Assembly: GCF_036711975.1 (NCBI RefSeq)
Contig: NC_091968.1
Span: 25,157,001 to 25,221,000, forward strand
Length of the DNA: 64,000 nucleotides
Reading direction: 5' to 3'
Source: Onthophagus taurus
Lineage: Eukaryota; Arthropoda; Insecta; Coleoptera; Scarabaeidae
This document shows positions 4,433 to 35,300 of the stretch, piece by piece. Within the stretch, counting starts at the first letter, position 1; each line of letters starts with the position of its first letter. The notes under the pieces were generated by a model. That model was not told the DNA's origin, made no database searches, and saw only the letters and a list, made by a program, of their open reading frames with translations. The position numbers and the translations under genes are program-made.

Positions 4433-7400
4433 TTACGCGGTGGGCTCACTTTTGGTCTTAAATGATTCGGGAGGAAATCTTTCAACAATGTTTACATCAT
4501 CAAAACTTACTTTTCGGCTTTTCTCATTTTTCGTGTCAACAAAATCCTCAATTTTATCTGTTTCATCCTCCGAAACACTTTTTTCAAAATTTTCGTTAAG
4601 CTTCCCTGAATTTTTTCTAAAAAAAAACATTTAAATTGTTTTTTTGTGAATTAATTAAACTTAATATTTTTATTACCCCTTTTTAACTTCTTCAGTTGAA
4701 GTTTCGGCCATTTCAACCCACTCCAAATCCCGACTCAAAATATCTTCGTACTCATAATTATAAAGATGAGATTTGATGAAAAACTTTTTATCTTGCGGTT
4801 CCGGCCGAATTGTCGATAAACCTTCCTTAAACGAATACTCGCAAATTTTCGTGGCCAAATCGATGGAAAGATTTTTTAACAGTTCTAAGCGCGGAAAAAT
4901 CCTTCCTGCTTTTAAATCTTCGTAAGTTACTTGTTCGGCGATGCATCGAGCCGCCACACCGAAAAGTTCATCGGGAATATTTTTTAAACCGGATGCCATT
5001 ACTCCCAATGTTAAACCGGGATAAATTAAGCAAGATGATGCGTGACCGGGAACTGAAGTTTTATTCAAAATTTCGGGTTTGAAAATTGAAGATGTTGCTA
5101 AAATTGCTTTTCCCTAAAAAAAAATAATTAAAGTACAGTAAAACTTCGATATAACGGATTAATAAAGGCACTAGACCTAGAACTAGGAAGTTTCGGGTTA
5201 AAAAATAAAACAGTTTTGTTAGAAAGTGTCAAATGTCAAAATTAGATATAACGATTTTTTGATAAATATTATAATTATCTTAATAAGAATCAAAAATGCT
5301 TTAATTTGATACCAAACATGATACATTTGGGTTAAAAAATAAAAAGTTAGGTTAGAAACTGTTAAATGTCAAAGTTAAATATAACGATTTTTTGATAAAT
5401 ATTGAGACGATCTTAATAAGAATCAAAAATGGTTTAATTTGATACCAAACATGATACAATTGGGTTAAAAAATAAAAAGTTAAGTTAGAAATTGTCAAAT
5501 GTCAAAATTAAATATAACAATTTCTTTGATAAATATTGAAATTATCTTAATAAGAATCAAAAATGCTTTAATTTGATACCAAACATGACGTATTTGCGTT
5601 AAAAAATAAAAAAAAGTTAGGTTAGAAACTGTCAAATGTCAAAATTAAATGTAACGATTTTTTGATAAATATTGAAATGATTTTAATAAGAATCAAAAAT
5701 GTTTTAATTTGATGCCAAACATGATACATTTGGGTTAAAAAATAAAAAGTTAGGTTAGAAACTGTCAAATATCAAAATTAAATATAACAATTTTTTAATA
5801 AATATTGAAATGATCTTAATAAAAATCAAAAATGCTGTAATTTGATATCAAACATGACGTATTTGAGTTAAAAAATAAAAAAGTTAGGTTAGAAACTGTC
5901 AACTGTCAAAGTTAAATGTAACGATTTTTTGATAAATATTGAAATTAATTTAATAAGAATCAAAAATGCTATAATTTGATACCAAACATGATATATCTGT
6001 GTTAAAAAATAAAATAGGTTAGAAACTGTCAAATGTCAAAGTTAAATGTATCGATTTTTTGATAAATATTGAAATTATTTTAATAAGAATCAAAAATGCT
6101 TTTATTTGATACCAAACATGATAGATTTGGGTTAAAAAATAAAACAGTTAGGTTAGAAACTGTGAAATGTCAAAATTAAATATAACAATTTCTTTGATAA
6201 ATATTGAAATTATCTTAATAAGAATCATAAATGCTTTAATTTGATACCAAACATGATAGATTTGGGTTAAAAAATAAAAAAGTTAGGTTAGAAACTGTCA
6301 AATGTCAAAATTAAATATAACAATCTTTTAATAAATATTGAAATGATCTTAATAAGAATCAAAAATGCTATAATTTGATACCAAACATGATATATTGTGG
6401 TTACAAAATAAAAAAGTTAGGTTAGAAACTGTCAAATGTCAAAATTAAATGTAACGATTTTCTGATAAATATTGAAATGATCTTAATAAGAATCAAATAT
6501 GCTTTAATTTGATACCAAACACAATATGTTTACGTCAAAAAATAAGAAAGTTAGGTTATAAACTGTCAAATGTCAAATAACCGCCATTTTTTTTGCTAAA
6601 AATTAAGATATCTCGATAACGGTTGGAGATAAATAGGTCGAGTTTGGGTTCATTTTAAAGGATTTTTAATTTCCTATCCATTTATGTTAAAAAAAGAACA
6701 CCTTTATAACTAAAAAAATTTTCTGAATCGATCCTTATTAAGAAACAAATACAAAGTTTGGTTATGTCCGATTAATCGGCCGTGCTCAGCCGTGTTGGTC
6801 GTATGCAGTGTACGTTAGTAGACGCATGTTTATAACTTTGGATTGGTCTGGCACTGACCACTACTCGTGCATCTAGGTCTAGTGTTAGTTTTAGTTTTAG
6901 TTCGAAGGAAATATTTAACAACCTAGCGCAACCTAGCACTGTCATTAGAAGTAAAACTAGACCTAAAACTAGAAACATTCGGGCGTATACGAAGCGTACG
7001 GCTAAACCCAAATGATTCTAGTTCTAGGTATAGTGTTAGGTCTATATAGTAAGAGTGCGATAATTAATTAACACACTGTAGATATTATTAATAGTATGAC
7101 TTAAAAATATTTTGTCCGTTATATCGAGAATTTACTGCATTATAAAAACATACTTGAGTGTGATGATATATATCTTGATAAAACGAAGAATTTGAGTTTT
7201 CGTTTAAAGCGAAAATGACAGGTTTTTGATTAACTTCGGCCATTTGATATAAAACGTCGGGTTTAAAGAACGTTTTCGCCTCGGAATTGCCAATTAGCAC
7301 GTTTGGTTTGATTTTATTGATAACATCAACCGGATTTTGGGTTGGTTCGAAATCTTTGGCATAAATCACTTTGTCCCCTGTAAAAAGTTTGCCTTCTATT

Positions 7401-8554
7401 CTCGCCTGAGTCAATAAACCATCGTTATCGAACATCCAAATATTATTTTTTATCATTTCCGGTGATAAATTCGACCCGTTTTCTTCCATTATGTGTTTAA
7501 CTAAGGTGTTTGCGATTTCAAATGTTGTTTCGTCAATTCCAAGGAATAACATGGTGTAATCTTTGATGGGTTTATTTAAAATTGCCTCAGAAGCCATTAA
7601 ACCAGCTAAAACGACGGCTCCTTTGCATTGTAAGTCGTCGATTAAAAAGCAACATTTTTTTTGGTACTTTTTAAGAAACGTCAATGAATTTTCCCTGTTA
7701 AATCCTTCAAATTGAATGATTGTGTTTTGGCCAAATTGATTTATTATTGAGGTGATGACTTCGTCGATAAAATCTAAATAAGTTTGCCCCGTAATTCTTT
7801 TTTGGCGTAGTCCCAAATAAGAGGGGTCTTTTAAAAGCTTTTCGTTATTAGTTCCAACGTCTAAAGTTATTGGGAGACATTGATGAGGTTTTATTCCGCT
7901 TATTCCTGTATATAAAGTCGATTTTCCGACGGGAAATAACATGCTATTTACACCCATATCGCCCAAATTTGGTTGCAAATTTTCACCGTCGGTTGCAATA
8001 ACAATTTTGACATCACTTTCGGGCCAGTTTTTAAGCACCTCAGGGATTCGGCCGATATCTAAGTTGTTTAAGAACAACCCTTTTGGTTGGGTGAAAAGTA
8101 ATCCGTAGTTATTACACATTTTGTTTATTGTGGGGGTGTAAATAATCGGAAGTAAATCACTGAGATTTTCGTTTATAACTTTATAAAAAAGTTTTTCGTT
8201 TCTTTCTTGGAGATCGTATAAAAAAATTGATTTTTTAACGTCATCTCCTGAGAATGTTTTTAAACGTTCTTTGCATAATTGGAGTTGATCTTCTTGGGTT
8301 AATATGGTTGATGGTAAAAGACCGTGGATTCCGAGAGATCGCCGTTCTTCTAACGTAAAAGCTGCATCCTAAAACAATAAAAAAATCAAAATTAATTAAT
8401 TAATTGGGGTAATAATCACCTTGTTGATTTTTGAATTCTTTAAATATTCTATCCCTTTCAGCGAAGCTGATCGAACGAAATTAATCCGATTTTGTTTTAG
8501 AGCTGAACACAACGAACGTTGAATTAAAGATTTAACAAATTGAATCGATGCCAT
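4433..8554 (-). CDS. Malic enzyme paralogue, probably catalytically impaired
   Basis: Four exons: 8420-8554, 7154-8368, 4677-5113 and 4433-4616 (135+1215+437+184 nt), giving an open frame of 656 residues. All junctions are GT..AG and phases agree. Residues 1-45 are basic and hydroxylated, like a mitochondrial presequence. The family is clear: IHGLLPS, YTPT (122-125), CLPITLDVGTNNE and FALN are malic enzyme landmarks. Several active-site positions are changed relative to the neighbouring plus-strand copy. The malate-binding Arg of DGERILG is Asn175. The metal-ligand Asp of QFEDFG is Gly267. The NAD(P) loop GAGEA is GIDET (322-326). SNPT is NENS. The Lys in GK (194) and the DD pair (289-290) remain. 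A C-terminal extension rich in Ser, Lys and Glu follows. Intron 2 (7153-5114) is filled with satellite. A poly(A) signal lies at 4346-4351. Family assignment is secure; loss of activity is inferred. Confidence 0.85.
5150..6700 (+). repeat. ~134-bp satellite array in malic enzyme intron 2
   Basis: Tandem units contain 'GATACCAAACATGATA', 'GTTAGGTTAGAAACTGTCAA' and 'GATAAATATTGAAATGATC'. Spacing of the first landmark is 133-134 bp (5308, 5441, 5575). The array ends in a cap running from ~6585 to 6690, with 'TCTCGATAACGGTTGGAGAT' and 'CCTATCCATTTATGTT'. The same cap closes every other array of this family. Confidence 0.95.
6690..7100. repeat. Satellite-flanking block with ACTAGAACTA-rich terminal sequence
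   Basis: The block contains 'GCCGTGCTCAGCCGTGTTGG' (around 6779-6800), then 'CTAGGTCTAGTGTTAGTTTT', then further ctag-rich sequence. Related blocks lie at 24350-24650, 27215-27925 and, inverted, 61590-61700. An open frame over 6772-7011 falls entirely in this repeat and is not a gene. The ctag-rich ends match the terminal inverted repeats of the element at 48219-48779. Confidence 0.75.
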
Positions 8555-8780
8555 TCCCCATATGTTCAAAACTTTATCTTAAAAATTGTAAATCAAAAAA
8601 TTCTCCATGACGTAATTTCGATATTCCCAAAAAAAATGATGACATTTCGAGTCAGTTTTAATAAAAATCCATAACAACACTAAAACATTAATAATTTTTG
8701 TCAAATTTTTATTTTAAACAATTTACAAAAATGTTTTTTCAAAAATTAAAACCACCGCGAATCATAAAGTTTTTAAAAAA
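8256..8780. repeat. Promoter cassette copy 1 (attached to the minus malic enzyme)
   Basis: This copy holds the first ~110 nt of exon 2, intron 1 and exon 1 of the minus-strand malic enzyme, the 176-bp intergenic promoter, and the first ~16 codons of the plus-strand malic enzyme (ATG at 8731). At ~8781 the plus-strand coding sequence is interrupted by 134-bp satellite. Both cassette edges carry GTTTTTAAA, a 9-bp direct repeat that could have served as duplication breakpoints. Confidence 0.9.
8555..8730. promoter_or_regulatory. Bidirectional malic enzyme promoter, 176 bp
   Basis: This is the whole interval between the minus-strand ATG (8554) and the plus-strand ATG (8731). In all five cassettes the interval is exactly 176 bp (8555-8730, 10467-10642, 11990-12165, 13510-13685, 15263-15438). 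The copies are almost identical, with a few substitutions. Promoter function is inferred from position between divergent starts. No TATA box is assigned with confidence. Confidence 0.7.
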
Positions 8781-10168
8781 ATGCTGTAATTTGATACCAA
8801 ACATGACGTATTTGAGTTAAAAAATAAAAAAGTTAGGTTAGAAATTGTCAACTGTCAAAGTTAAATGTAACGATTTTTTGATAAATATTAAAATGATCTT
8901 AACAAGAATTAAAAATGCTTTAATTTGATACCAAACATGATATATCTGAGTTAAAAAATAAAATAGGTTAGAAACTGTTAAATGTCAAAGTTAAATGTAG
9001 CGATTTTTTGATAAATGTTGAAATTATTTTAATAAGAATCAAAAATGCTTTAATTTGATACCAAACATGATAGATTTGGGTTAAAAAATAAAAAAGTTAG
9101 GTTAGAAACTGTCAAATGTCAAAATTAAATATAACAATTTCTTTGATAAATATTGAAATTATCTTAATAAGAATCAAAAATGCTATAATTTGATACCAAA
9201 CATGATATATTGGGGTTAAAAAAATTAGGTTAGAAACTGTCAAATGTCAAAGTTAAATGTACCGATTTTTTTATAAATATTAAAATGATCTTAACAAGAA
9301 TTTAAAATGGTTTAATTTGATACCAAACATGATATATCTGGGTTAAAAAATAAAATAGGTTAGAAACTGTTAAATGTCAAAGTTAAATGTAGCGATTTTT
9401 TGATAAATATTGAAATTATTTTAATAAGAATTAAAAATGCTTTAATTTGATACCAAACATGATAGATTTGGGTTAAAAAATAAAAAAGTTAGGTTAGAAA
9501 CAGTCAAATGTCAAAATTAAATATAACAATTTCTTTGATAAATATTGAAATTATCTTAATAAGAATCAAAAATGCTTTAATTTGATACCAAACATGATAG
9601 ATTTGGGTTAAAAAATAAAAAAGTTAGGCTAGAAACTGTCAAATGTCAAAATTAAATATAACAATTTTTTAATAAATATTGAAATGATCTTAATAAGAAT
9701 CAAAAATGCTATAATTTGATACCAAACATGATATATTGTGGTTACAAAATAAAAAAGGTAGGTTAGAAACTGTCAAATGTCAAAATTAAATGTAACGATT
9801 TTCTGATAAATATTGAAATGATCTTAATAAGAATCAAATATGCTTTAATTTGATACCAAACATGATATATATAGGTTAAAAAATAAAGAAAATTAGGTTA
9901 GAAACTGTCAAATGTCAAAATTAAACATCGACTTTTTTGATAAATATTGAAATTATCATAATAAGAATCAAAAATACTTTAATTTGATACCAAACACAAT
10001 ATGTTGACGTCAAAAAATAAGAAATTTAGGTTATAAACTGTCAAATGTCAAATAATCGCCATTTTTTTTTGCTAAAAATTAAGATATCTCGATGACGGTT
10101 GGAGATAAATAGGTCGAGTTTGGGTTCATTTTAAAAGATTTTTAATTTCCTATCCATTTATGTTGAAA
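8781..10168 (+). repeat. 134-bp satellite array between cassettes 1 and 2
   Basis: About ten units of the 134-bp satellite. It begins at the truncated plus-strand malic enzyme exon and ends in the same cap as other arrays ('CCTATCCATTTATGTTGAAA'), then passes into 'GTTTTTAAACG' of cassette 2. Confidence 0.95.
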
Positions 10169-10691
10169 GTTTTTAAACGTTCTTTGCATAATTGGAGTTG
10201 ATCTTCTTGGGTTAATATGGTTGATGGTAAAAGACCGTGGATTCCGAGAGATCGCCGTTCTTCTAACGTAAAAGCTGCATCCTAAAACAATAAAAAAATT
10301 AAATTAATTAATTAATTGGGGTAATAATCACCTTGTTGATTTTTGAATTCTTTAAATATTCTATCCCTTTCAGCGAAGCTGATCGAACGAAATTAATCCG
10401 ATTTTGTTTTAGAGCTGAACACAACGAACGTTGAATTAAAGATTTAACAAATTGAATCGATGCCATTCCCCATATGTTCAAAACTTTATCTTAAAAATTG
10501 TAAATCAAAAAATTCTCCATGACGTAATTTCGATATTCCCAAAAAAAATGATGACATTTCGAGTCAGTTTTAATAAAAATCCATAACAACACTAAGACAT
10601 TAACAATTTTTGTCAAATTTTTATTTTAAACAATTTACAAAAATGTTTTTTCAAAAATTAAAACCACCGCGAATCATAAAGTTTTAAAAAA
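10169..10691. pseudogene. Orphan promoter cassette copy 2
   Basis: Copy of 8256-8780. The minus-strand start is at 10466 and the plus-strand start at 10643. Exon 1, its splice donor, intron 1 and the exon 2 acceptor are preserved, but exon 2 stops after ~100 nt where satellite begins. The plus side runs into satellite, and a one-base loss in the A-run region creates an early TAA after AAG TTT. Transcription would make truncated, satellite-tailed RNAs only. Confidence 0.9.
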
Positions 10692-11690
10692 AATGCTGTA
10701 ATTTGATACCAAACATGACGTATTTGAGTTAAAAAATAAAAAAGTTAGGTTAGAAACTGTCAACTGTCAAAGTTAAATGTAACGATTTTTTGATAAATAT
10801 TACAATGATTTTAACAAGAATTAATAATGCTTTAATTTGATACCAAACATGATATATCTGGGTTAAAAAATAAAATAGGTTAGAAACTGTTAAATGTCAA
10901 AGTTAAATGTAGCGATTTTTTGATAAATATTGAAATTATTTTAATAAGAATCAAAAATGCTTTAATTTGATACCAAACATGATAGATTTGGGTTAAAAAA
11001 TAAAAAAGTTAGGTTAGAAACTGTCAAATGTCAAAATTAAATATAACAATTTCTTTGATAAATATTGAAATTGTCTAAATAAGAATCAAAAATGCTTTAA
11101 TTTGATACCAAACATGATAGATTTGGGTTAAAAAATAAAAAAGGTAGGCTAGAAACTGTCAAATGTCAAAATTAAATATAACAATTTTTTTAATAAATAT
11201 TGAAATGATCTTAATAAGAATCAAAAATGCTATAATTTGATACCAAACATGATATATTGTGGTTACAAAATAAAAAAGTTAGGTTAGAAACTGTCAAATG
11301 TCAAAATTAAATATAACAATTTTTTTATAAATATTGAAATGATCTTAATAAGAATCAAAAATGCTATAATTTGATACCACACATGATATATTGTGGTTAC
11401 AAAATAAAAAAGTTAGTTTAGAAACTGTCAAATGTCAAAATTAAATGTAACGATTTTCTGATAAATATTGAAATGATCTTAATAAGAATCAAAAATACTT
11501 TAATTTGATACCAAACACAATATGTTGACGTCAAAAAATAAGAAAGTTAGGTTATAAACTGTCAAATGTCAAATAATCGCCATTTTCTTTTTTCTAAAAA
11601 TTAAGATATCTCGATAACGGTTGGAGATAAATAGGTCGAGTTTGGGTTCATTTTAAAAGATTTTTAATTTCCTATCCATTTATGTTGAAA
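10692..11690 (+). repeat. 134-bp satellite array between cassettes 2 and 3
   Basis: About seven units plus the standard terminal cap. Unit order resembles the other inter-cassette arrays, so satellite and cassette appear to have been amplified together as one higher-order unit. Confidence 0.95.
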
Positions 11691-12213
11691 GTTTTTAAAC
11701 GTTCTTTGCATAATTGGAGTTGATCTTCTTGGGTTAATATGGTTGATGGTAAAAGACCGTGGATTCCGAGAGATCGCCGTTCTTCTAACGTAAAAGCTGC
11801 ACCCTAAAACAATAAAAAAATCAAAATTAATTAATTAATTGGGGTAATAATCACCTTGTTGATTTTTGAATTCTTTAAATATTCTATCCCTTTCAGCGAA
11901 GCTGATCGAACGAAATTAATCCGATTTTGTTTTAGAGCTGAACACAACGAACGTTGAATTAAAGATTTAACAAATTGAATCGATGCCATTCCCCATATGT
12001 TCAAAACTTTATCTTAAAAATTGTAAATCAAAAAATTCTCCATGACGTAATTTCGATATTCCCAAAAAAAATGATGACATTTCGAGTCAATTTTAATAAA
12101 AATCCATAACAACACTAAAACATTAATAATTTTTGTCAAATTTTTATTTTAAACAATTTACAAAAATGTTTTTTCAAAAATTAAAACCACCGCGAATCAT
12201 AAAGTTTTTAAAA
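11691..12213. pseudogene. Orphan promoter cassette copy 3
   Basis: The minus-strand start is at 11989 and the plus-strand start at 12166. The exon 2 start reads GGTGCAGC in place of GATGCAGC (Asp to Gly). The plus side encodes about 29 residues: malic enzyme N terminus MFFQKLKPPR through FLKK, then satellite-encoded residues and a TAA. The same mini-ORF occurs in copies 1 and 4. Confidence 0.9.
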
Positions 12214-13210
12214 AAATGCTGTAATTTGATACCAAACATGACGTATTTGAGCTAAAAAATAAAAAAGTTAGGTTAGAAACTGTCAACTGTCAAAGTTAAA
12301 TGTAACGATTTTTTGATAAATATTAAAATGATCTTAACAAGAATTAAAAATGCTTTAATTTGATACCAAACATGATATATCTGGGTTAAAAAATAAAATA
12401 GGTTAGAAACTGTTAAATGTCAAAGTTAAATGTAGCGATTTTTTGATAAATGTTGAAATTATTTTAATAAGAATCAAAAATGCTTTAATTTGATACCAAA
12501 CATGATAGATTTGGGTTAAAAAATAAAAAAGTTAGGCTAGAAACTGTCAAATGTCAAAATTAAATATAACAATTTTTTTATAAATATTGAAATGATCTTA
12601 ATAAGAATCAAAAATGCTTTAATTTGATACCAAACATGATAGATTTGGGTTAAAAAATAAAAAAGTTAGGCTAGAAACTGTCAAATGTCAAAATTAAATA
12701 TAACAATTTTTTAATAAATATTGAAATGATTTTAATAAGAATCAAAAATGCTATAATTTGATACCAAACATGATATATTGTGGTTACAAAATAAAAAAGT
12801 TAGGTTAGAAACTGTCAAATGTCAAAATTAAATGTAACGATTTTCTGATAAATATTGAAATGGTCTTAATAAGAATCAAATATGCTTTAATTTGATACCA
12901 AACATGATATATATGGGTTAAAAAATAAAGAAAATTAGGTTAGAAACTGTCAAATGTCAAAATTAAACATCGATTTTTTTGATAAATATTGAAATTATCT
13001 TAATAAGAATCAAAAATACTTTAATTTGATACCAAACACAATATGTTGACGTCAAAAAATAAGAAAGTTAGGTTATAAACTGTCAAATGTCAAATAATCG
13101 CCATTTTTTTTTGCTAAAAATTAAGATATCTCGATAACGGTTGGAGATAAATAGGTCGAGTTTGGGTTCATTTTAAAAGATTTTTAATTTCCTATCCATT
13201 TATGTTGAAA
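12214..13210 (+). repeat. 134-bp satellite array between cassettes 3 and 4
   Basis: About seven satellite units and the standard cap. The length is within a few bases of the preceding inter-cassette array, giving repeat periods of 1523 and 1520 bp between cassette starts. Confidence 0.95.
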
Positions 13211-13735
13211 GTTTTTAAACGTTCTTTGCATAATTGGAGTTGATCTTTTTGGGTTAATATGGTTGATGGTAAAAGACCGTGGATTCCGAGAGATCGCCGT
13301 TCTTCTAACGTAAAAGCTGCATCCTAAAACAATAAAAAAATCAAAATTAATTAATTAATTGGGGTAATAATCACCTTGTTGATTTTTAAATTCTTTAAAT
13401 ATTCTATCCCTTTCAGCGAAGCTGATCGAACGAAATTAATCCGATTTTGTTTTAGAGCTGAACACAACGAACGTTGAATTAAAGATTTAACAAATTGAAT
13501 CGATGCCATTCCCCATATGTTCAAAACTTTATCTTAAAAATTGTAAATCAAAAAATTCTCCATGACGTAATTTCGATATTCCCAAAAAAATTGATGACAT
13601 TTCGAGTCAATTTTAATAAAAATCCATAACAACACTAAAACATTAATAATTTTTGTCAAATTTTTATTTTAAACAATTTACAAAAATGTTTTTTCAAAAA
13701 TTAAAACCATCGCGAATCATAAAGTTTTTAAAAAA
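13211..13735. pseudogene. Orphan promoter cassette copy 4
   Basis: The minus-strand start is at 13509 and the plus-strand start at 13686. It shares with copy 5 the base change that turns Pro9 of the plus enzyme into Ser (CCATCG versus CCACCG in copies 1-3), so copies 4 and 5 are closest relatives. Exon 1 has one further Ser-to-Leu change near its 3' end. Confidence 0.9.
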
Positions 13736-14998
13736 ATGCTGTAATTTGATACCAAACATGACGTATTTGAGTTAAAAAATAAAAAAGTTAGGTTAGAAAC
13801 TGTCAACTGTCAAAGTTAAATGTAACGATTTTTTGATAAATATTAAAATGATCTTAACAAGAATTAAAAATGCTTTAATTTGATACCAAACATGATATAT
13901 CTGGGTTAAAAAATAAAATAGGTTAGAAACTGTTAAATGTCAAAGTTAAATGTAGCGATTTTTTGATAAATGTTGAAATTATTTTAATAAGAATCAAAAA
14001 TGCTTTAATTTGATACCAAACATGATATATTTGGGTTAAAAAATAAAAAAGTTAGGTTAGAAACTGTCAAATGTCAAAATTAAATATAACAATTTCTTTG
14101 ATAAATATTGAAATTATCTTAATAAGAATCAAAAATGCTTTAATTTGATACCAAACATGATAGATTTGGGTTAAAAAATAAAAAAGGTAGGCTAGAAACT
14201 GTCAAATGTCAAAATTAAATATAACAATTTTTTAATAAATATTGAAATGATCTTAATAAGAATCAAAAATGCTATAATTTGATACCAAACATGATATATT
14301 GTGGTTACAAAATAAAAAAGTTAGGTTAGAAACTGTCAAATGTCAAAATTAAATGTAACGATTTTCTGATAAATATTGAAATGATCTTAATAAGAATCAA
14401 ATATGCGTTAATTTGATACCAAACATGATATATATGGGTTAAAAAATAAAGAAAATTAGGTTAGAAACTGTCAAATGTCAAAATTAAATAACAATTTTTT
14501 AATAAATATTGAAATGATCTTAATAAGAATCAAAAATGCTTTAATTTGATACCAAACATGATATATTGTGGTTACAAAATAAAAAAGTTAGGTTAGAAAC
14601 TGTCAAATGTCAAAATTAAATGTAACGACTTTCTGATAAATATTGAAATGGTCTTAATAAGAATCAAATATGCTTTAATTTGATACCAAACATGATATAT
14701 ATGTGTTAAAAAATAAAGAAAACTAGGTTAGAAACTGTCAAATGTCAAAATTAAACATCGACTTTTTTGATAAATATTGAAATTATCTTAATAAGAATCA
14801 AAAATACTTTAATTTGATACCAAACACAATATGTTGACGTCAAAAAATAAGAAAGTTAGGTTATAAACTGTCAAATGTCAAATAATCGCCATTTTTTTTT
14901 GCTAAAAATTAAGATATCTCGATAACGGTTGGAGATAAATAGGTCGAGTTTGGGTTCATTTTAAAAGATTTTTAATTTCCTATCCATTTATGCTGAAA
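13736..14998 (+). repeat. 134-bp satellite array between cassettes 4 and 5
   Basis: About nine satellite units, followed by the standard cap (here 'CATTTATGCTGAAAG'). Two extra units compared with the neighbouring arrays make this spacing 1753 bp. Confidence 0.95.
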
Positions 14999-15438
14999 GT
15001 TTTTAAACGTTCTTTGCATAATTGGAGTTGATCTTCTTGGGTTAATATGGTTGATGGTAAAAGACCATGGATTCCGAGAGATCGCCGTTATTCTAACGTA
15101 AAAGCTGCATCCTAAAACAATAAAAAAATCAAAATTAATTAATTAATTGTGGTAATAATCACCTTTCAGCGAAGCTGATCGAACGAAATTAATCCGATTT
15201 TGTTTTAGAGCTGAACACAACGAACGTTGAATTAAAGATTTAACAAATTGAATCGATGCCATTCCCCATATGTTCAAAACTTTATCTTAAAAATTGTAAA
15301 TCAAAAAATTCTCCATGACGTAATTTCGATATTCCCAAAAAAATTGATGACATTTCGAGTCAATTTTAATAAAAATCCATAACAACACTAAAACATTAAT
15401 AATTTTTGTCAAATTTTTATTTTAAACAATTTACAAAA
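14999..15438. pseudogene. Promoter cassette copy 5: intact plus promoter, broken minus exon 1
   Basis: The minus-strand start is at 15262, but ~40 bp at the 3' end of exon 1 are deleted (CACC joined directly to TTTCAGCGAAGC), removing its final codons. The 176-bp intergenic stretch is complete and leads into the intact plus-strand malic enzyme. This copy is therefore the likely working promoter of the plus-strand gene, and copy 1 that of the minus-strand gene. Confidence 0.85.
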
Positions 15439-18400
15439 ATGTTTTTTCAAAAATTAAAACCATCGCGAATCATAAAGTTTTTAAAAAATTTCCATCATAA
15501 CGATGCCGTTTGTCCATCGACTTTAAGCGGGATGGATTATTTAACGGATCCCCGGTTAAATAAAGGATTAGCTTTCACGTTGGAGGAGCGACAAATTTTG
15601 GGGATTCACGGTTTGCAACCGGCTAGGGTTAAAACTCAAGAGGAACAAATCGAACTTTGCAAAATATCTTTATCTAGATATACGGACTCGTTAAATAAAT
15701 ATCTTTATTTAAACAATTTACACGAACGAAACGAAAGGAATTTTTATCGATTGATTAGCGAGAATATCGAACAGATTTTACCTATTGTTTATACACCAAC
15801 GATTGGGTTGGTTTGCCAAAAATTTGGATTGGTATATAGAAGACCAAAAGGATTATTTATCACCATTCATGATAAAGGATATATTTATCAAGTTTTAAAA
15901 AATTGGTACGTTTATTTATTTACATTTTTTTTATAACAAACAGTATCTATCCAAAATTCTAACCCCACTTTTTATCATCTTATTTATCTGTCATTTTTTG
16001 ACATAACTAAGGTTCGGGTAAAACAGATTACTGTAAATGAAAATTACCTTTTTCAATGTTAAATTGTTGAATATTTTTATCCTTGAGTTTTGTCAACTTA
16101 AAATTGACAGATAAACAAGGCTACCAACATCTTCTTCTTTATCACTTCCCCTAGACAGATACTAAAAATGTAAGACTTCTCAAAATAGACAGGTTCAAAC
16201 TATTGAAAATTGTTTGGTGCCTGTCCATTTTTATCACAGAACACATGATGACAGCTATCACAAGCACAGAAGCCGCTTGATACGTTTTACAATTATACAG
16301 GGTGTTTCTGTAAGTCGTGGCATAAAATTAATCACTAAAATTAGAGACAAAATGATGACGATTCGTGTAAAAATTTTGGAAGAAAATAGTCTAGAGTTTG
16401 ATTTTGTTCTTTTAAACTGGTTTTTATTTTATATAGAATTTAAGTATCTTTTAGAGACTTTACAAATAGATTAACATCTCTCATCTTATCCATTTTACAA
16501 ACAAGTTTCTTAATATTTCTTTTTGTTTTGTTAAAAAAGTTCACATATCACAATTACGTTCAGGACGGATGTTCATAACTTGAATCTCCGGCACAGATTT
16601 TGTTTAAACATTCCTTAGGTCAATAGGTCTTTATTTTGCGCAATTTTATTTTTGTTGTGTTTAATTGGAATGTGTCTTTTTGTTTTATTTTGTTGTATTT
16701 TTTTTATTACAACAGTTTATATATTATTTACTTTAGTTATTTTTATAACGGTTATTACTGCGGCCTTTCGATATTTGCCAACCTCATAGGGTGCAAGTTA
16801 AATCAGCGGCACTTTTGCCTTTTCAGCTCTTGCACCCATTGAGCTTGAATAATGAATTGTATATTTCTTGATTGATTCTTATTTGTTATTTATTTGGCTC
16901 AATAAAGTATTATTATTATATCAAAGCCGATATCAGATCATTTACTAATTTATAAAATTAAAGCTTAAAAAGTTGTAAAATTACAGGTTAAAATTTAAGA
17001 ACGCTCTTTTTTAACAAAAGAAATATTAAGAAACTTGGGAAAAATTCAAGAATCACCATGTGGCTTAAAAATCGACGCCTTTTTTTAATAAATGTGAAAT
17101 TACCCAAAAAGATACGTCGTTGAAAATGAAAAGAAAGTACCGAAAAGTTATAAAACTTCTATTATATGATAATTAACTTCAGATTTAAAATCTCAACCTC
17201 AATTTTGACATATTTGTAATATTTGTTAAAAATGCTTTAAAATGAGTACAAACACGACATATTTATCTTCAATATTAATGAAGTTATGGTCAACTTCCGG
17301 TTAAAAATGTCAACGTCAATTTTGACATATTTGTAATCGTCATGAAAAGTCCTTTAATATGAGCCCAAACATGATACGTTTAATTTCAATATTACTCGAG
17401 GTATAAACAGCTTCCGGTTTAAAATGTCATTTTGACATATTCTTAATTTTTATAAAATGTCTTAATATTTGTCACAAAAACAAAAATATAATAAAAAAAA
17501 ATAAAAAATTAAGGTTGGTATTAATATTTAAAAATTAAATTGCTATCTTCATTGTTGCTAACTTCGGATTTAATGTTTTTTATTCTAACTTCTTTGTTTT
17601 TTGAGATAAGTGCATTTTATTTGGACACATTTGGTTTTTTTTTCATAAAGAATACATCATGAAAGAACACCACGAAGTTGTCCATTTGTCTATTATATGA
17701 TAACTAACTTCCGGTTTAAAATGTCGACCTCAATTTTGATATATTTGTAATCTTCATTAAAAATACTTTAAAATGAGTACAAACACGACATATTTATCTC
17801 CAATATTAATGAAGTTATGGTCAACTTCCGGTTAAGAATGTCAACGTCAATTTTGACATATTTATAATCGTCGTGAAAAATCCTTTAAAATGAGTCCAAA
17901 CATGATACGTTTAATTCCAATATTATTCGAGATATAAGCAATTTCCGGTTTAAAATGTCATAATAAAATGACATAAAATGTCTTAATGTTTGTCACAAAA
18001 ACATAAATATAATAAAAAAAAATAAAAAATTTAGGTTGGTATTAATATTTAAAGATTAAATTGCTATCTTCATTGTTGCTAACTTCAGGTTTAATGTTTT
18101 TTATTCTAATTTTTTTGTTTTTTGGGATAAGTGCGTCTTGTTTGGACTCATTTTAAAGGTTTTTTAATGAAGATGACAAATATGTCAAAATTGACGTTGA
18201 CGTTTCAAACCGGAAGTGATTGTATTTCTATTAATATTAAAGTTAAATAGGTCGAGTTTGGACTCATTTTAAAAGATTTTTTATGAAATTGACAAATATG
18301 TCAAAATTAAAAGATGACAGTTCGAACTTTTTTGTTTTTTGAGATAAATACGTCAAGTTTGGACTCATTTTAAAGGTTATTTTATGAAGATTACGAATAT

Positions 18401-21400
18401 AATAATAAAATTAAAGTTGACATTGACAACAGAAAGTTTTTTTTCACGACTAAACCCGAATGTTTTTAGTTCTCGTTCTAGTTTTAGTTCAATAAAAATA
18501 TACAACATATTAATATCTTATGCTACCTACCACTGCCACTAACAGAACACGAACTGATAACCTCCAAAACACGATCAGCTGTTTATATCAACTTCACAAA
18601 CTAAAGTCAATTATTCAAATTCGACCAATCACGTTTCATTTCCGTTTCTAATGTTAACACTCAGGGGCAGGGTTGCCAGGTTACACACATAGAATGTCGT
18701 GAGCTATGTCATAAAAAATCGTGAGATGTTGAAGTTTATTTAAAAATCACTCAATTTTAATAATATGTGTTACATATAAGCATAGGTTTCAAGTAAAATA
18801 GTTTAGACAACGTTTGTATATAAAAGTGATATAATTAAAAGGAAATAAAATGACAATTTAAGTAATTTCTTAGCGCCATCTAGTGGCGAATAGATGTAAC
18901 TAAAGAGAAATTTACAGTAACCTACAATTTTAGTTAAAAATGCTTTGATTTTACTTTGATTTTATTAACACTAATAAATTAATTAAAGGTAATATCATGA
19001 GATCTCACGATAAATCGTGAGACCTGGCAACCTTGCTCAGGGGTACCATCTATTTTCTATCTTGTAGGTTGCTGTATCTAACAGATTTAACTCGACATTG
19101 ATAAACCGGCCCTAAGTGTCCTATCTAAGTCGGTTCTTAGACGTATGATGCAAATCGGACTTGAAATCGTATAACGTGATTGGCGCTTAGCTTTATTCTT
19201 TAAAACAAATGGTACTTTAGGTCTTTCGGTACTCTGCATTTTTTCTAAGATAAGATACACCTTTACTTACCAGGCAGCATGAAAATCTCTAAAAACGATA
19301 AAATGTCGCTTAGTCAAGTGATGTATAACGCGGTCCAATTCACCAACCTACAACAAATTTAGTGTCTATCCAAAATTCTAACCTCACTTTTATCATCTTG
19401 TTTATCTGTCATTTTTTGACATAAGTGAGGTTCGATTAAAACAGATTACTGTAAATAACAATATAACCCTTTTCAATGTTAAATTGTTGAATATTTTTAG
19501 ATTCTTCTACTATCCTTGAGTTTTTTCATCTTAAAACTGACAGATAAAAAAGGCTACCAACATCTTCTTCTTTATAACTTCCCTTACACAGAGGCCACGT
19601 TACCTCGGGACAACTATTTAGGTTATACAACATAATAATTCATATTTACGAAAATTCGGAATTTATTTTACTTAATAATAATGCACCAACTTACAACAAA
19701 TAGTGTCTATTCAATATTCTAACCTCACTTTTATCATCTTGTTTATCTGTCATTTTTTGACATAAGTAAGGTTCGATTAAAACAGATTACTGTAAATAAA
19801 AATATAACCCTTTTCAATGTTAAATTATTGAATGTTTTTAGATTCTTCTACTATCCTTGAGTTTTTTCATCTTAAAATTGACAGATAAAAAAGGCTACCA
19901 ACATCTTCTTCTTTATAACTTCCCTTAGACAGAGGCCACGTTACCTCGGGACAACTATTTAGGTTATACAACATAATAATTCATATTTACGAAAATTCTG
20001 AATTTATTTTACTTAATAATAATTCACCAACCTACAACAAATAGTGTCTATTCAAAATTCTAACCCCACTTTTATCATTTTGTTTATCTTTATCTGTCAT
20101 TTTTTGACATAAGTAAGGTTCGGTTAAAACAGATTACTGTAAATAAAAATATAACCCTTTTCAATGTTAAATTGTTGAATATTTTTAGATTCTTCTACTA
20201 TCCTTGAGTTTTTTCATCTTAAAACTGACAGATAAAAAAGGCTACCAACATCTTCTTCTTTATAACTTCCCTTAGACAGAGGCCACGTTACCTCGGGACA
20301 ACTATTCAGGTTATACAACATAATAATTCATATTTACGAAAATTCTGAATTTATTTTACTTAATAATAATTCACCAACCTACAACAAATAGTGTCTATTC
20401 AAAATTCTAACCCCACTTTTATCATCTTGTTTATCTGTCATTTTTTGACGTAAGTAAGGTTCGATTAAAACAGATTACTGTAAATAAAAATATAATCGTT
20501 TTCAATGTTAAATTGTTGAATGTTTTTAGATTCTTCTACTATCCTTGAGTTTTTTCATCTTAAAACTGACAGATAAAAAAGGCTACCAACATCTTCTTTA
20601 TAACTTCCCTTAGACAGAGGCCACGTTACCTCGGGACAACTATTCAGGTTATACAACATAATAATTCATATTTACGAAAATTCTGAATTTATTTTACTTA
20701 ATAATAATTCACCAACCTACAACAAATAGTGTCTATTCAAAATTCTAACCTCACTTTTATCATCTTGTTTATCTGTCATTTTTTGACGTAAGTAAGGTTC
20801 GATTAAAACAGATTACTGTAAATAAAAATATAACCCTTTTCAATGTTAAATTGTTGAATGTTTTTAGATTCTTCTACTATCCTTGAGTTTTTCATCTTAA
20901 AATTGACAGATAAAAAAGGCTACCAACATCTTCTTCTTTATAACTTCATTTAGACAGAGGCCACGTTACCTCGGGACTACTATTCAGGTTATACAACGTT
21001 ATAATTCATATTTACGAAAATTCTGAATTTATTTTACTTAATAATAATTCACCAACCTACAACAAATAGTGTCTATTCAAAATTCTAACCTCATTTTTAT
21101 CATCTAGTTTATCTGTCATTTTTTGACGTAAGTAAGGTTCGATTAAAACAGATTACTGTAAATAAAAATATAACCCTTTTCAATGTTAAATTGTTGAATG
21201 TTTTTAGATTCTTCTACTATCCTTGAGTTTTTTCATCTTAAAACTGACAGATAAAAAAGGCTACCAACATCTTCTTCTTTATAACTTCCCTTAGACAGAG
21301 GCCACGTTACCTCGGGACAACTATTCAGGTTATACAGCATAATAAGTCATATTTACGAAAATTCTGAATTTATTTTACTTAATAATTATTCACCAACCTA

Positions 21401-23072
21401 CAACAAATAGTGTCTATTCAAAATTTTAACCTCACTTTTATCATCTTGTTTATCTGTCATTTTTTGACGTAAGTAAGGTTCGGTTAAAACAGATTACTGT
21501 AAATAAAAATAACCCTTTTCAATGTTAAAATTGAATATTTTTAGATTCTTCTACCGTCCTTGAGTTTTTTTAACTCAAAATTAACAAATAAAAAAGGCTA
21601 CCAACATCTTCTTCTTCTTAATCATTTCCCCTAGACAGAGGACAACTGGGGTCAAGTTATACAACATAATCATTCACATTTACCAAAAATTATGAATTTA
21701 TTCTACTTAATAATAATTCACCAACCTACAAAATAAACAACACAACCTCAATAAACATTAACAAATCAATATAATTTGTTGTAGGCCTGAAAATGATGTG
21801 AAATTAATTTGTGTAACGGATGGTGAAAGAATTCTAGGTTTAGGTGATTTAGGAGCTTCCGGAATGGGAATAGCTATAGGAAAATTGTCGGTTTGTACGG
21901 CTTTGGCTGGTGTGGATCCTTCGATTTGTCTCCCCATTGCTTTAGACGTTGGAACTAACAATGAGACTCAATTAAACGATCCTATTTATGTGGGTCTCCG
22001 TGAAAAACGCATTTCCGGTTCATTATACGACGAATTTCTCGATGAATTTATGGCGGCGGTTGTGAAAAAATACGGACAATACACTCTAGTACAATTTGAA
22101 GATTTCGGTAATAAAAACGCGTTTCGTCTTTTGGACAAATATAAAAAGAAATATTGCACTTTTAACGATGATATACAAGGAACTGGGGCTGTTGTTGTAA
22201 GTGGTTTTATGACATCGGAAAGAGTTACGAAAAAATCGATGAAAAATTGTAATTATCTTTTTTTCGGTGCTGGTGAAGCATCTATTGGAATTGCAAATTT
22301 AACCGTTAGGGCATTAGAAAAACAAGGATTAAATTACAAAGAAGCTTGCGATAAAATATTTCTTTTCGACATCGATGGTTTAATTACAATTAATCGAGAT
22401 TTGGATGAACACAAAAAGAAATTCGCTAAAAATTTACCGAAAACAAGAAACTTAATGGAATTAATTGAAACGATAAAGCCCGATTTTTTAATTGGAGCTT
22501 CGACAGTTTCGGGGGCTTTTACACCAGAAATTCTTCAAAAATTAGCTAGGATTCATAAACGACCTGTTATTTTTGCTTTAAGTAATCCTACGCATTTAAC
22601 GGAATGTACCCCCGAAGAAGCTTTAAAGCACACCAACGGCCAAGCTTTAATCGCAACTGGATCTCCTTTTCCTAAATTTTCTTTTAATGGTGCCACTTTT
22701 AAACCATCTCAATCAAATAATGCTTATATTTTTCCTGGAATGGCTTTGGGAATTATTGAAACTCAACTTAAACATATCGAAGATGATTTATTTTTAGTCG
22801 CCGCTGAAACTTTAAGTAATCACGTAACGGATGAAGATCTTCAATTTGGATCTCTTTATCCTCCTTTAACGAAAATTAAAGAGATTTCGCTTAGAATTGC
22901 TACGAATATAATGAAATATTCGTTTAAAAAGGGTTATTCAGGTTTGTATCCGGAACCAGATGATAAAGAAAGCTTTATTAGGAGCAAATTGTATGATTAT
23001 TTTTATAAACCTTCTTTGCCCAGTCAGTGGAGTTGGCCACAACAAAGCGGCAAACCAAAAGTTTTATTATAA
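15439..23072 (+). CDS. NAD(P)-dependent malic enzyme, probably mitochondrial
   Basis: Decarboxylates malate to pyruvate and CO2. Two exons, 15439-15905 and 21785-23072 (467+1288 nt), join a split Trp codon to give 584 residues, the usual family length. The start is the first ATG after the 176-bp promoter; an upstream TTG frame is not needed. Visible motifs include IVYTPTIG with the catalytic Tyr118, DGERILGLGDLG with Arg171, IGKL with Lys189, QFEDFG with metal ligands Glu261 and Asp262, FNDDIQGT (282-289), the dinucleotide loop GAGEA (317-321), FALSNPT and NNAYIFPG. All expected catalytic residues are present. The basic N terminus (KLKPSRIIKFLK) suggests mitochondrial import. The 5.9-kb intron is full of repeats. 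A poly(A) signal at 23078-23083 lies before the ARSB stop. NAD versus NADP preference is not decided. Confidence 0.95.
15941..16170 (+). repeat. Single diverged copy of the ~340-bp intron satellite
   Basis: Just after the exon 1 donor, 'TCTATCCAAAATTCTAACC', 'ATCTGTCATTTTTTGACATA' and 'AACAGATTACTGTAAAT' match the array at 19360-21780. The 3' part is shortened. Confidence 0.8.
16750..16922 (+). mobile_element. Possible LINE 3' end
   Basis: The stretch ends in 'GGCTCAATAAAGTATTATTA', a poly(A)-signal-like sequence with a short ATT microsatellite tail, preceded by a GC-richer hairpin-like stretch (GGGTGCAAG..CTCTTGCACCC). This arrangement is typical of insect non-LTR retrotransposon tails. No reverse transcriptase remains nearby. 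The open frame at 16636-16842 is low-complexity and not accepted as a gene. Confidence 0.35.
17055..18560 (+). mobile_element. ~1.5-kb non-autonomous repeat family, copy 1
   Basis: It starts near 'CATGTGGCTTAAAAATCGAC' and contains two tandem ~540-bp halves, each with 'CAACTTCCGGTTAAGAATG'-like and 'TTGACATATTTGTAATC' segments. It ends in 'AACCCGAATGTTTTTAGTTC' followed by ctag-rich sequence. Other copies are at 30235-31800 (inverted), 40268-41755 and 51238-52570. No coding capacity is seen. The ctag-rich end resembles the terminal repeats of 48219-48779. Confidence 0.8.
18668..19035. mobile_element. hAT-like MITE with 8-bp target duplication
   Basis: This 368-bp element has inverted ends CAGGGTTGCCAGGT and, on the other strand, CAAGGTTGCCAGGT. 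It is flanked on both sides by the 8-bp direct repeat CTCAGGGG (18660-18667 and 19036-19043). CAGGG-type ends with an 8-bp target duplication are typical of hAT elements. There is no ORF. A CTCF-like motif lies inside at 18871-18886. Confidence 0.9.
18871..18886 (-). promoter_or_regulatory. CTCF-consensus-like motif
   Basis: The reverse strand reads CCACTAGATGGCGCTA, which fits CCASYAGRKGGCRSY at every position. It lies within the hAT-like MITE in the first intron of the plus-strand malic enzyme. Binding is not shown. Confidence 0.45.
19360..21780 (+). repeat. ~340-bp satellite array, about seven units
   Basis: 'AGTGTCTATTCAAAATTCTA' recurs near 19702, 20043, 20388, 20727, 21067 and 21409, with an earlier unit at ~19370, so the period is about 340 bp. 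Each unit has 'TATCTGTCATTTTTTGAC' and a downstream inverted counterpart, 'TGACAGATAAAAAAGG', able to form a long stem. The last unit stops just before the exon 2 acceptor of the plus-strand malic enzyme. Confidence 0.95.
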
Positions 23073-30234: not shown

Positions 30235-31800
30235 ACGAAGCGACTTTAGTTGTGAAAAAACCTTTCAGTTGTCAATGTCAACTTTAATTTTATTAATATA
30301 TTCGTAATCTTCATAAAATAACCTTTAAAATGAGTCCAAACTCGACATATTTAACTTTAATATTAATGGAGATACAACCACTTCCGGTTTGAAACGTCAA
30401 CGTCAATTTTGACATATTTGTCATCTTCATTAAAAAACCTTTAAAATGAGTCCAAACATGACGCACTTATCTCAAAAAACAAAAAAGTTAGAATAAAAAA
30501 CATTAAACCCGAAGTTAGCAACAATGAAGATTAGCAATTCAATTTTTAAATATTAATACCAACCTTAATTTTTTATTTTTTTTTATTATAGTTTTGTTTT
30601 TATGACAAATATTAAAACATTTTATAAAAATTAAGAATATATCAAAATGACGTTGACATTTCAAACCGGAAGTTGCTTATACCTCGAGAAATATTGGAAT
30701 TAAACGTATCATGTTTGGACTCATTTTAAAGGATTTTTCACGAGGATTACAAATATGTCAAAATTGACGTTGACATTCTTAACCGGAAGTTGACCATAAC
30801 TTCATTAAAATTGAAAATAAATATATCGTGTTTGTACTCATTTTAAAGGATTTTTAATGAAGGTTACAAATATGTCAAAATTGAGGTTGACATTTTAAAC
30901 CTGAAGTTAGTTATGATATAATAGACAAATGGACAACTTCATGGTGTTCTTTCATGATTTATTCTTTATTAAAAAAAAACCTTTAAAATGAGTCCAAACA
31001 AGACCCACTTATCTCAAAAAACAAAAAAGGTAGATAAAAAAACGTTCAGTAGTCAATGTCAACTTTAATTTTATTATTATATTCGTAATCTTCATAAAAT
31101 AACCTTTAAAATGAGTCCAAACTCGACATGTTTAACTTTAATATTAATGGAGATACAACCACTTCCGGTTTGAAACGTCAACGTCAATTTTGACATATTT
31201 GTCATCTTCATTAAAATACCTTTAAAGTGAGTCCAAACATGACGCACTTATCTCAAAAAACAAAAAAGTTAGAATAAAAAGCATTAAACCTGAAGTTAGC
31301 AACAATGAAGATAGTAATTTAATTTTTAAATATTAATACCAACCTTAATTTTTGATTTTTTTTATTACTCCTATATTTTTGTTTTTGTGACAAATATTAA
31401 GACATTTTATGAAAATTAAGAATATGTCAAAATGACGTTGACATTTCAAACCGGAAGTTGTTTATATCTCGAGTAATATTGGAATTTAACGTATCATGTT
31501 TGGACTCATTTTAAAGGATTTTTCACGACGATTACAAATATGTCAAAATTGACGTTAACATTCTTAACCGGAAGTTGACCATAACTTCATTAATATTGGA
31601 GGTAAATATGTCGTGTTTGTACTCATTTTAAAGGATTTTTAATGAAGATTACAAATATGTCAAAATTGAGGTTGATAATTTAAATCTGAAGTTAGTTATC
31701 ATATAATAGAAGTTTTATAACTGAAGTTAATCTAGTTTTAGTCACTTTTCCGCACTGTCTTTTTTTCTTGACGTGCTTTTTGGGTCATTTCACGTTGATT
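30235..31800 (-). mobile_element. ~1.5-kb non-autonomous repeat family, copy 2 (inverted)
   Basis: The reverse complement matches 17055-18560, including the two tandem halves and the 5' segment with 'CACTTTTCCGCACTGTC'. It lies upstream of ARSB. 29803-30234, the ARSB 5' flank, holds nothing else I can name. Confidence 0.8.
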
Positions 31801-32339
31801 AAAAAAAAAGTTACTTAATATTTTGTAAATTAGTAACTAATAATCTGATTTCGTCAAGTGATGCATAACGTAGTCCAATTTAGTTAAGTCATACTGTAGT
31901 CTATAATCGATTTGAGTTGCCTACAAAGAATCACCCCTTGAAGTTTGTTGCAGTCATTCAGATACACCCTGTATATTTATTAACTCAGTAGTTAAAAAAG
32001 AAATTGGCCATGAACAAATGTTATTTCCAAGTTATTTCCAACTAAAGATTATTGATCAATTTATAATACGTTTTATAACGTTTTATTAGCAATTAATTAT
32101 TTTTTATACTATTTTTTTATTTTTTTAAATTTTAAACCTAATGCCATCTACAAGGTAATTGCCAAAGGTTTACACACTTAAACCGTTTTGTTGATTTTAG
32201 GCAACCCATTTTACATCTTTTCGTAACGACTAAAAATTGTGACAAAATCACATACCTTCAGAAAAAACACATTCACGAAATAATAACAATTTTACGAAAA
32301 CGAAATCTCTTCCTAAGATACATGAGCATTAAATATTTT

Positions 32340-35300
32340 TAATTATAGAAAGTATTTCCCCATCGCTTTTAGTTTTTGAGTTATAATTGAGATAATTTTC
32401 GAAAATCAACAACTTTGATGTTTAATCGATTTAGAGCTTATAAATAAAAAATGGTAATAATTGGGTTCAATCATTTTATGGATCTAGTCTTTATGGTCCA
32501 TTACCAAGGTTTTATGTATAAAAAATATTTCCCCATCGCTTTTATTTTATGAGTTATGATTGAGTTAATTTTCTAAAATCAACAATTTTAATGTTTAATC
32601 GATTTAGAGGTTATAAATAAAAAATGGTAATAATTGGGTTCAATCTTTTTATGGATCTAGTCTTTATGGTCCATTACTAAGGTTTTATGTATAAAAAGTT
32701 TTTCTCCATCGCTTTTAGTTTTTGAGTTATAATTGAGATAATTTTCGAAAATCAACAATTTTGATGTTTAATCGATTTAGAGCTTATAAATAAAAAATGG
32801 TAATAATTGGGTTCAATCTTTTTATGGATCTAGTCTTTATGGTCCATTATCAAGGTTTTATGTATAAAAAATATTTCCCCATCGCTTTTATTTTATGAGT
32901 TATGTTTGAGTTAATTTTCGAAAATCAACAATTTTGATGTTTAATCGATTTAGAGCTTATAAATAAAAAATGGTAATAATTGGGTTCAATCTTTTTATGG
33001 ATCTAGTCTTTATGGCCCATTACTAAGGTTTTATGTATAAAAAGTGTTTCTCCATCGCTTTTAGTTTTTGAGTTATGATTGAATTAATTTTCGAAAATCA
33101 ACAATTTTGATGTTTAATCGATTTAGAGGTTATAAATAAAAAATGGTAATAATTGGGTTCAATCTTTTTATGGATCTAGTCTTTATGGTCCATTACCAAG
33201 GTTCTATGTATAAAAAATATTTCCCCATCGCTTTTATTTTATGAGTTATGAGTTATGATTGAGTTAATTTTCGAAAATCAACAATTTTGATGTTTAATCG
33301 ATTTAGAGCTTATAAATAAAAAATGGTAATAATTGGGATCAATCTTGTTATGGATCTAGTCTTTATGGCCCATTACTAAGGTTTTATGTATAAAAAGTTT
33401 TTCTCGATCGCTTTTAGTTTTTGAGTTATGATTGAGTTAATTTTCGAAAATCAACAATTTTGATGTTTAATCGATTTAGAGGTTATAAATAAAAAATGGT
33501 AATAGTTGGGTTCAATCTTATTATGGATTTAGTCTTTATGGCCTATTACTAAGGTTTTATGTATAAAAAGTATTTCCCCATCGCTTTTAGTTTTTGAGTT
33601 ATGAGTGAGTTAATTTTCGAAAATCAACAATTTTGATGATTAATCGATTTAGAGCCTATAAATAAAAAGTGGTAATAATTAGGTTCAATCTTTTTATGGA
33701 TCTGGTCTTTATGGTCCATTACTAAGGTTTTATGTATAAAAAGTTTTTCCCCATCGCTTTTATTTTATGAGTTATGATTGAGTTAATTTTCGAAAATTTT
33801 GATGTTTAATCGGTTTAGAGCTTATAAATAAAAAATGGTAATAATTGGGTTCAATCTTGTTATGGATCTAGTCTTTATGGTCCATTACTAAAGTTTTATG
33901 TATAAAAAGTTTTTCCCCATCGCTTTTATTTTATGAATTATGATTGAGTTAATTTTCGAAAATCAACAATTTTGATGTTTAATCGATTTAGAGCTTATAA
34001 ATAAAAAATAGTAATAATTGGGTTCAATCTTTTTATGGATTTAGTGTTTATGGTTCATTACCAAGGTTTTATGTATAAAAAGTTTTTCTCCATCGCTTTT
34101 AATTTTTGAGTTATGATTGAGTTAATTTTCGAAAATCAACAATTTTGATGTTTTATCGATTTAGAACTTATAAATAAAAAATGGTAATAATTGGGTTCAA
34201 TCTTGTTATGGATCTAGTCTTTATGGTCCATTACTAAGGTTTTATGTATAAAAAGTTTTTCCCCATCGCTTTTATTTTATGAGTTATGATTGAGTTAATT
34301 TTCGAAAATCAACAATTTTGATGTTTAATCGATTTAGAGCTTATAAATAAAAAATGGTAATAATTAAGTTCAATCTTTTTATGGATCTAGTCTTTATGGT
34401 CCATTACTAACGTTTTATGTATAAAAAGTTTTTCTCCATCGCTTTTAGTTTTTGAGTTATAATTGAGACAATTTTCGAAAATCAACAATTTTGATGTTTA
34501 ATCGATTTAGAGCTTATAAATAAAAAATGGTAATAATTGGGTTCAATCTTTTTATGAATCTAGTCTTTATGGTCCATTACTAAGGTTTTATGTATAAAAA
34601 GTTTTTCCCCATCGCTTTTATTTTATGAGTTATGATTGAGTTAATTTTCGAAAATCAACAATTTTGATGTTTAATCGATTTAGAGCTTATAAATAAAAAA
34701 TAGTAATAATTGGGTTCAATCTTTTTATGGATTTAGTGTTTATGGTTCATTACCAAGGTTTTATGTATAAAAAGTTTTTCCCCATCGCTTTTAATTTTTG
34801 AGTTATGATTGAGTTAATTTTCGAAAATCAACAATTTTGATGTTTAATCGATTTAGAGCTTATAAATAAAAAATGGTAATAATTGGGTTCAATCTTTTTA
34901 TGGATCTAGTCTTTATGGTCCATTATTAAGGTTTTATGTATAAAAAGTTTTTCCCCATCGCTTTTATTTTATGAGTTATGATTGAGTTAATTTTCGAAAA
35001 TCAACAATTTTGATGTTTAATCGATTTAGAGCTTATAAATAAAAAATAGTAATAATTGGGTTCAATCTTTTTATGGATTTAGTGTTTATGGTTCATTACC
35101 AAGGTTTTATGTATAAAAAGTTTTTCCCCATCGCTTTTAATTTTTGAGTTATGATTGAGTTAATTTTCGAAAATCAACAATTTTGATGTTTTATCGATTT
35201 AGAACTTATAAATAAAAAATGGTAATAATTGGGTTCAATCTTTTTATGGATCTAGTCTTTATGGTCCATTACTAAGGTTTTATGTTTAAAAAATATTTCC

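Follow-up and report, generated by a model that had tools for sequence, protein, structure and literature searches.

How does the start region of a gene pair come to be repeated within satellite DNA? The question is raised by a 64,000-nt stretch of the genome of the beetle Onthophagus taurus (contig NC_091968.1, positions 25,157,001 to 25,221,000 of the forward strand; hereafter the window). Here two malic enzyme genes that point away from each other, gene L on the minus strand and gene R on the plus strand, are separated by a series of cassettes, each holding the starts of both genes and the presumed bidirectional promoter between them, and by blocks of satellite. The locus is a real, unusual local rearrangement. 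It probably arose by local, low-copy tandem amplification, in which a compound unit formed once, was multiplied most simply by unequal exchange and would be mostly neutral; no activity of the extra copies is yet demonstrated.

Five cassettes and four satellite arrays

Each of the five cassettes (483–518 bp; Table 1) contains part of exon 2, intron 1 and exon 1 of gene L, a start-to-start spacer and 16 codons of gene R, with satellite arrays between the cassettes. The minus-strand starts of gene L, at 8554, 10466, 11989, 13509 and 15262, lie where a sequence-only reading of the same stretch had placed them, and the spacer is 176 bp in all five cassettes, again as claimed. Tandem Repeats Finder (TRF) and unit splitting likewise returned the proposed 10, 7, 7 and 9 units of about 134 bp, and malic enzyme domains were found in both genes, in keeping with the identity first given to them. 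The three inner copies are orphans that keep their splice sites, also as described: the donor AAG/GTGATT and an AG acceptor are present in all five copies. The outer copies had been said to serve two intact genes. Both open frames are indeed complete (596 amino acids over three exons for gene L and 584 over two for gene R, with exon borders deduced from homology and splice words), but copy 1 is orphan towards gene R and copy 5 towards gene L.

Whole-genome searches gave five matches to the spacer and five to the whole cassette, every one of them at this locus. The search space was the beetle's own genome (290,825,966 bases in 33 contigs), to which the eukaryotic comparison was confined.

The copies are closely similar. 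Pairs of cassettes differ by 2 to 9 substitutions over 482–518 aligned bases (0.39–1.87%), and there are two indels, a 1-bp deletion in copy 2 and a 35-bp deletion in copy 5. Among the satellite units, 31 of 33 have a partner in another array at 0–4 differences (the exceptions are A4, with 16, and D6, with 7), whereas neighbouring monomers in arrays A and B match at 88–90% (TRF). Units are thus more alike between repeats than side by side, and the term higher-order repeat, used in the sequence-only reading, holds only locally, for the four units arrayed here; it does not extend to the long, many-unit arrays otherwise meant by it. The lengths of the compound units (1913, 1522, 1520 and 1788 bp) differ by 391 and 268 bp, about three and two satellite units.

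Assembly is difficult in such repeats, and the series might reflect an assembly error or merged haplotypes. Against this, private changes occur in copies 2 to 5 (copy 1 has none), the arrays differ in unit content and the window contains no N. We regard such an artefact as very improbable; the copy number, taken from one assembly, could be off by one or two.

Source and formation of the compound unit

Two kinds of junction delimit the repeat. In all four cases, the cassette runs from the gene R codons via an A run into the same kind of satellite unit, and in all four, the satellite returns to a cassette where its end segment, the same each time, abuts gene L exon 2 at 8256. Save for point changes, both junctions are common to the four units, which follow one another head to tail; together with the roughly 1% divergence among copies, they bear out the earlier suggestion of recent amplification or homogenisation. 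Each unit amounts to satellite like that at 5828–6690 joined to the cassette at 8256–8776, without 6691–8255. Because the same junctions recur in four units, the compound unit was most simply formed once. The exon piece at the second junction begins with AAAGTTTTTAAA (12 bp), and the same 12 bp recur where the cassette ends in gene R. The satellite blocks are therefore bounded by a short direct repeat, 12 bp long in three of the four blocks and 8 bp in the fourth, owing to a T-to-A change in copy 2.

The inter-cassette satellite is nearly colinear with the satellite of gene L's own intron 2, a relation newly recognised here and absent from the sequence-only reading. When units were compared within the window, arrays A–D were found to open with units like I5 and I6 of the intron, followed in order by the I7/I8 and I9 types. 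The order has exceptions: A4 lacks a close partner, A5–A6 repeat the types of A2–A3, C3 is nearer to I8 than to I7, B5–B6 are both I9-like, and D6–D7 are extra. Arrays A, C and D close with two units nearest E3 and E4, and array B with one nearest E4. The first five units of array D (D1–D5, 667 bp) match the other arrays at 94–99% and the intron element at 97%, which is the best match outside the arrays among the best 40 of 229 candidates; places outside the locus reach at most 93% among the matches listed from these 40. As in a tandem duplication, the parts of the unit trace to its flanks, the cassette to the gene pair and the satellite, among the places scored, to the gene L intron element.

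That element lies within an insertion of intron 2, between inverted arms (arm stretches 5128–5199 and 7005–7145). The arm word CAGTAAAACTTCGATATAACGGA occurs at 949 genomic places at two or fewer mismatches, against 0 for the reversed control. The insertion looks like a nested DNA transposon with the satellite inside it, with ends that we take to be pogo/Tigger-like.

These features bear on the idea that a mobile element, Helitron-like in manner, captured the promoter and now carries it. The satellite family is dispersed (its end segment gave 592 first-look candidates), and the inverted arms that flank the intron copy carry an outer word found widely in the genome. (Satellite searches scored the best 40 of 592, 229 and 2019 candidates, and satellite copy counts are lower bounds.) By contrast, the cassette has all five of its matches at this one locus, where capture would have entailed spread, and the copied stretch at 5828–6690 stops short of the inverted arms. 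We disfavoured transposon capture on account of this confinement, and rate it extremely improbable.

Several observations weigh against tandem amplification from the intron in its simplest form. The final array units are nearer to an element at 24.0–24.3 kb than to the intron element; a second satellite donor is possible, and the donor comparison covers only the 40 of 229 candidates that were scored. Further, I5–I9 and D1–D5 differ at 20 of 667 positions (3.0%), whereas cassette 1 differs from copies 2–5 by only 3, 2, 5 and 6 substitutions, below the divergence of the satellite (Fisher p = 0.0024, 0.0007, 0.023 and 0.044, calculated over 518 bases throughout, where copies 2 and 5 actually align over 517 and 483). 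A single duplication without homogenisation therefore does not fit, and either exchange among cassettes or a divergent donor allele must be assumed. Mutual exchange is expected to make tandem copies closer to each other than to their source, and the first two array units differ at 1–6 of 264 positions between arrays and at 12–13 of 264 from the intron units. The pattern would be no different if the donor allele had already diverged from the intron copy seen today. As for the array ends, the first 2 of 38 informative columns in intron unit I10 are of the penultimate type, and of the other 36, 33 are of the last type, one is of the penultimate type and two are neither. From this pattern, we read the intron copy as having lost one unit after the event, which would explain the E3/E4-like array ends.

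Under tandem amplification, which we prefer, the compound unit would have been formed by error-prone repair or template switching. Along one route, 5828–8776 would have been duplicated and 6691–8255 lost; along the other, the cassette would have been duplicated via the shared GTTTTTAAA, and a satellite block then copied into the joint. Both routes fit, and we state no preference between them. Unequal exchange would then have raised the count to four units and held the copies about 1% alike, with the arrays gaining or losing whole 134-bp units meanwhile. The start codons are 176 bp apart within each cassette, and those of the intact genes are now about 6.9 kb apart, beyond the 1 kb expected of an intact head-to-head pair with a bidirectional promoter; we infer that the close head-to-head pair is the ancestral arrangement. 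Genes L and R would thus have been pushed apart from the first distance to the second, each with a whole copy of the once-shared promoter, leaving three spare copies between two private ones.

Fate of the extra promoter copies

The constant spacer length had been put forward as a sign of recent amplification or homogenisation, since a neutral relic would be expected to drift in length. As such it is weak. The spacer divergence, which the sequence-only reading had singled out for comparison, proves to be that of the flanks (4 of 176 columns substituted, against 8 of 342 in the flanks; Fisher p = 1.0), and the probability that both indels miss the spacer is 0.44. With spacer and flanks equally variable, we rejected the constant length as evidence of constraint. 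All five spacers contain TGACGTAA, at 8608 and four equivalent sites, but the copies are so alike that its retention says little. Initiator-like words in the spacer, looked at by eye, were set aside because of their shortness.

Some of the orphan exons are decaying. The orphan gene L half of copy 5 is frameshifted because 35 bp of exon 1 are missing, and it also carries a nonsense change; the orphan gene R part of copy 2 has an early stop. The orphan gene L frames of copies 2–4 are open up to the satellite. Copy 1 lacks private changes and those of copy 5 all fall in the orphan half, but with counts this low they do not prove that the working halves are constrained. Given this decay and the equal variation of spacer and flanks, the copies show no apparent sign of selection, with too few changes to exclude it. 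The inner copies and unused halves are thus probably neutral passengers, although the spare copies may still initiate transcription weakly into the satellite.

The sequence-only reading had suggested promoter multiplication, decoy factor binding or satellite transcription as possible results. Two ideas would give the extra copies a function. First, they may be kept as additional usable promoters for gene L, exon 1 of copies 2–4 being spliced to exon 2 of copy 1 to give a normal or nearly normal protein. This is a claim on function and is compatible with an origin by tandem amplification. The 45 residues encoded by exon 1 are identical in copies 1, 2 and 3, exon 1 of copy 4 is one residue off, and the donors are kept. 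Each orphan, however, has its own acceptor 51 nt away (50 nt in copy 2), so that local splicing and a stop in the satellite are likelier than reaching copy 1. Copy 5 is frameshifted, and towards gene R the cassette ends within exon 1, leaving the orphans without a gene R donor. No constraint on the spacer is seen, with few changes by which to judge. On balance, we consider such a role unlikely.

Second, all four arrays lie between a rightward and a leftward promoter half. Facing promoters could transcribe the arrays on both strands, the rightward transcripts being antisense to the next gene L fragment, and double-stranded RNA so formed could bring about silencing, either of the satellite family or of gene L. 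A precedent appears in passages of a study of Tribolium castaneum, in which small interfering RNAs from the TCAST1 satellite suppress neighbouring genes (PMC5844308). At the present locus, firing of the orphans is a conjecture from geometry, and silencing of this kind, again a claim on function, seems quite unlikely. Two-strand satellite transcription would still be the most testable of the functional ideas. Its fullest version, in which a host promoter would drive such transcription, small RNAs would act on the family or on gene L and the split would separate the regulation of the two paralogues, we take to be improbable.

Related systems, neighbouring genes and other repeats

General models of tandem duplication with unequal crossing over account for several features of the locus: common junctions, whole-unit length changes and about 1% divergence between units. 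The locus goes beyond the usual case in that its unit includes a presumed divergent promoter and separates the two genes of a head-to-head pair.

Closer parallels appear in parts of the satellite literature. The foldback transposon Tetris gave building blocks for satellite DNA of Drosophila virilis (PMC4079207, PMC7492417), and there, as here, tandem repeats within a dispersed element seed a longer tandem array; unlike the Tetris array, which appears to consist of element repeats, the unit at this locus adds parts of two genes and a presumed host promoter. Satellite-like repeats also occupy the centre of non-autonomous Helentrons in Crassostrea gigas (PMC7492417), which share with the beetle family short satellite arrays that are dispersed through the genome inside elements; unlike them, the cassette here is found at one locus only, and we leave the element class unnamed. 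TCAST satellites are dispersed near genes in T. castaneum (PMC5844308) and resemble the present case in having arrays in introns and near genes, but no duplication of a gene promoter is mentioned in the passages of that paper. Among the titles and abstract openings of one library, we found no published example in which a divergent promoter had been multiplied together with satellite from an intron of the gene it serves.

The locus suggests that an intron satellite can seed a tandem unit that includes its gene's own promoter, and that the members of a head-to-head pair can be uncoupled while both keep their promoter. It also offers a natural setting in which to ask if promoters added next to a satellite are active, silenced or neutral.

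Table 1. Positions of features in the window
Feature	Position	Strand	Remarks
Cassette 1	8256..8773		Gene L exon 2 part, intron 1 and exon 1 (minus), spacer 8555-8730, first gene R codons (plus); serves gene L; orphan towards gene R
Cassette 2	10169..10685		Orphan in both directions; early stop in gene R part
Cassette 3	11691..12208		Orphan in both directions
Cassette 4	13211..13728		Orphan in both directions
Cassette 5	14999..15481		Serves gene R; orphan gene L half with 35-bp deletion (exon 1) and nonsense change (exon 2)
Start-to-start spacers	8555..8730, 10467-10642, 11990-12165, 13510-13685, 15263-15438		Presumed bidirectional promoter
Satellite array A	8777..10168	plus	10 units of ~134 bp and end segment
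Satellite array B	10689..11690	plus	7 units and end segment
Satellite array C	12212..13210	plus	7 units and end segment
Satellite array D	13732..14998	plus	9 units and end segment
Likely source of inter-cassette satellite	5828..6690	plus	Intron 2 units I5-I10 and end segment; unit matches in order, best scored match to D1-D5 outside the arrays
Gene L exon 1 (coding)	8420..8554	minus	
Gene L exon 2	7154..8368	minus	
Gene L intron 2	5114..7153	minus	Nearly filled by nested insertion, inverted arms 5128-5158 and 7115-7145
Gene L exon 3	4673..5113	minus	Malic enzyme paralogue; low end computed from 596-aa frame plus stop
Gene R exon 1 (coding)	15439..15905	plus	
Gene R exon 2	21785..23072	plus	
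117-bp array pair	17175-17429 and 17706-17960		
117-bp array pair	30636-30908 and 31405-31693		
117-bp array pair	40399-40671 and 40910-41189		
117-bp array pair	51262-51540 and 51800-52073		

Although its frame is complete, gene L is an odd malic enzyme. Compared with human ME2, it has TDGEN for TDGER, FEGF for FEDF and GIDET for GAGEA; compared with gene R, it has NENS for SNPT and ASSCLIYPG for SNNAYIFPG. From these residues, whose functional roles are presumed, gene L may be a pseudoenzyme; no literature on malic enzyme pseudoenzymes in insects was found in the library searched. Further malic enzyme matches in the beetle's own genome lie on contigs 3 and 7. The gene R intron holds a tandem array of its own at 19337–21731 (341 bp × 7, 94%), the unit of which, by eye, resembles the start of that intron near 15940.

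Other satellite clusters were checked for repeated non-satellite spacers in three stretches totalling 29 kb, a sample too small for a frequency. The two spacers longer than 100 bp in the first stretch (L066) do not match each other; the two in another (L068) have in common a single inverted stretch (264 bp, 80%); and the third (L067) has a single spacer longer than 100 bp, with no partner for comparison, and satellite blocks that suggest a satellite-only pattern of roughly 700 bp. On contig 6, the end segment of the same satellite forms part of the unit of a 428-bp tandem array (about 438954–445490, 99%), apparently another recent local amplification involving this family.

Within the window, the eight listed arrays of a 117-bp unit (2.2–2.5 copies each) form four pairs, with starts 0.5–0.8 kb apart, as if they belonged to one dispersed element. 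Two more tandem arrays lie at 32337–37425 (173 bp × 29.5) and 55424–58811 (178 bp × 19).

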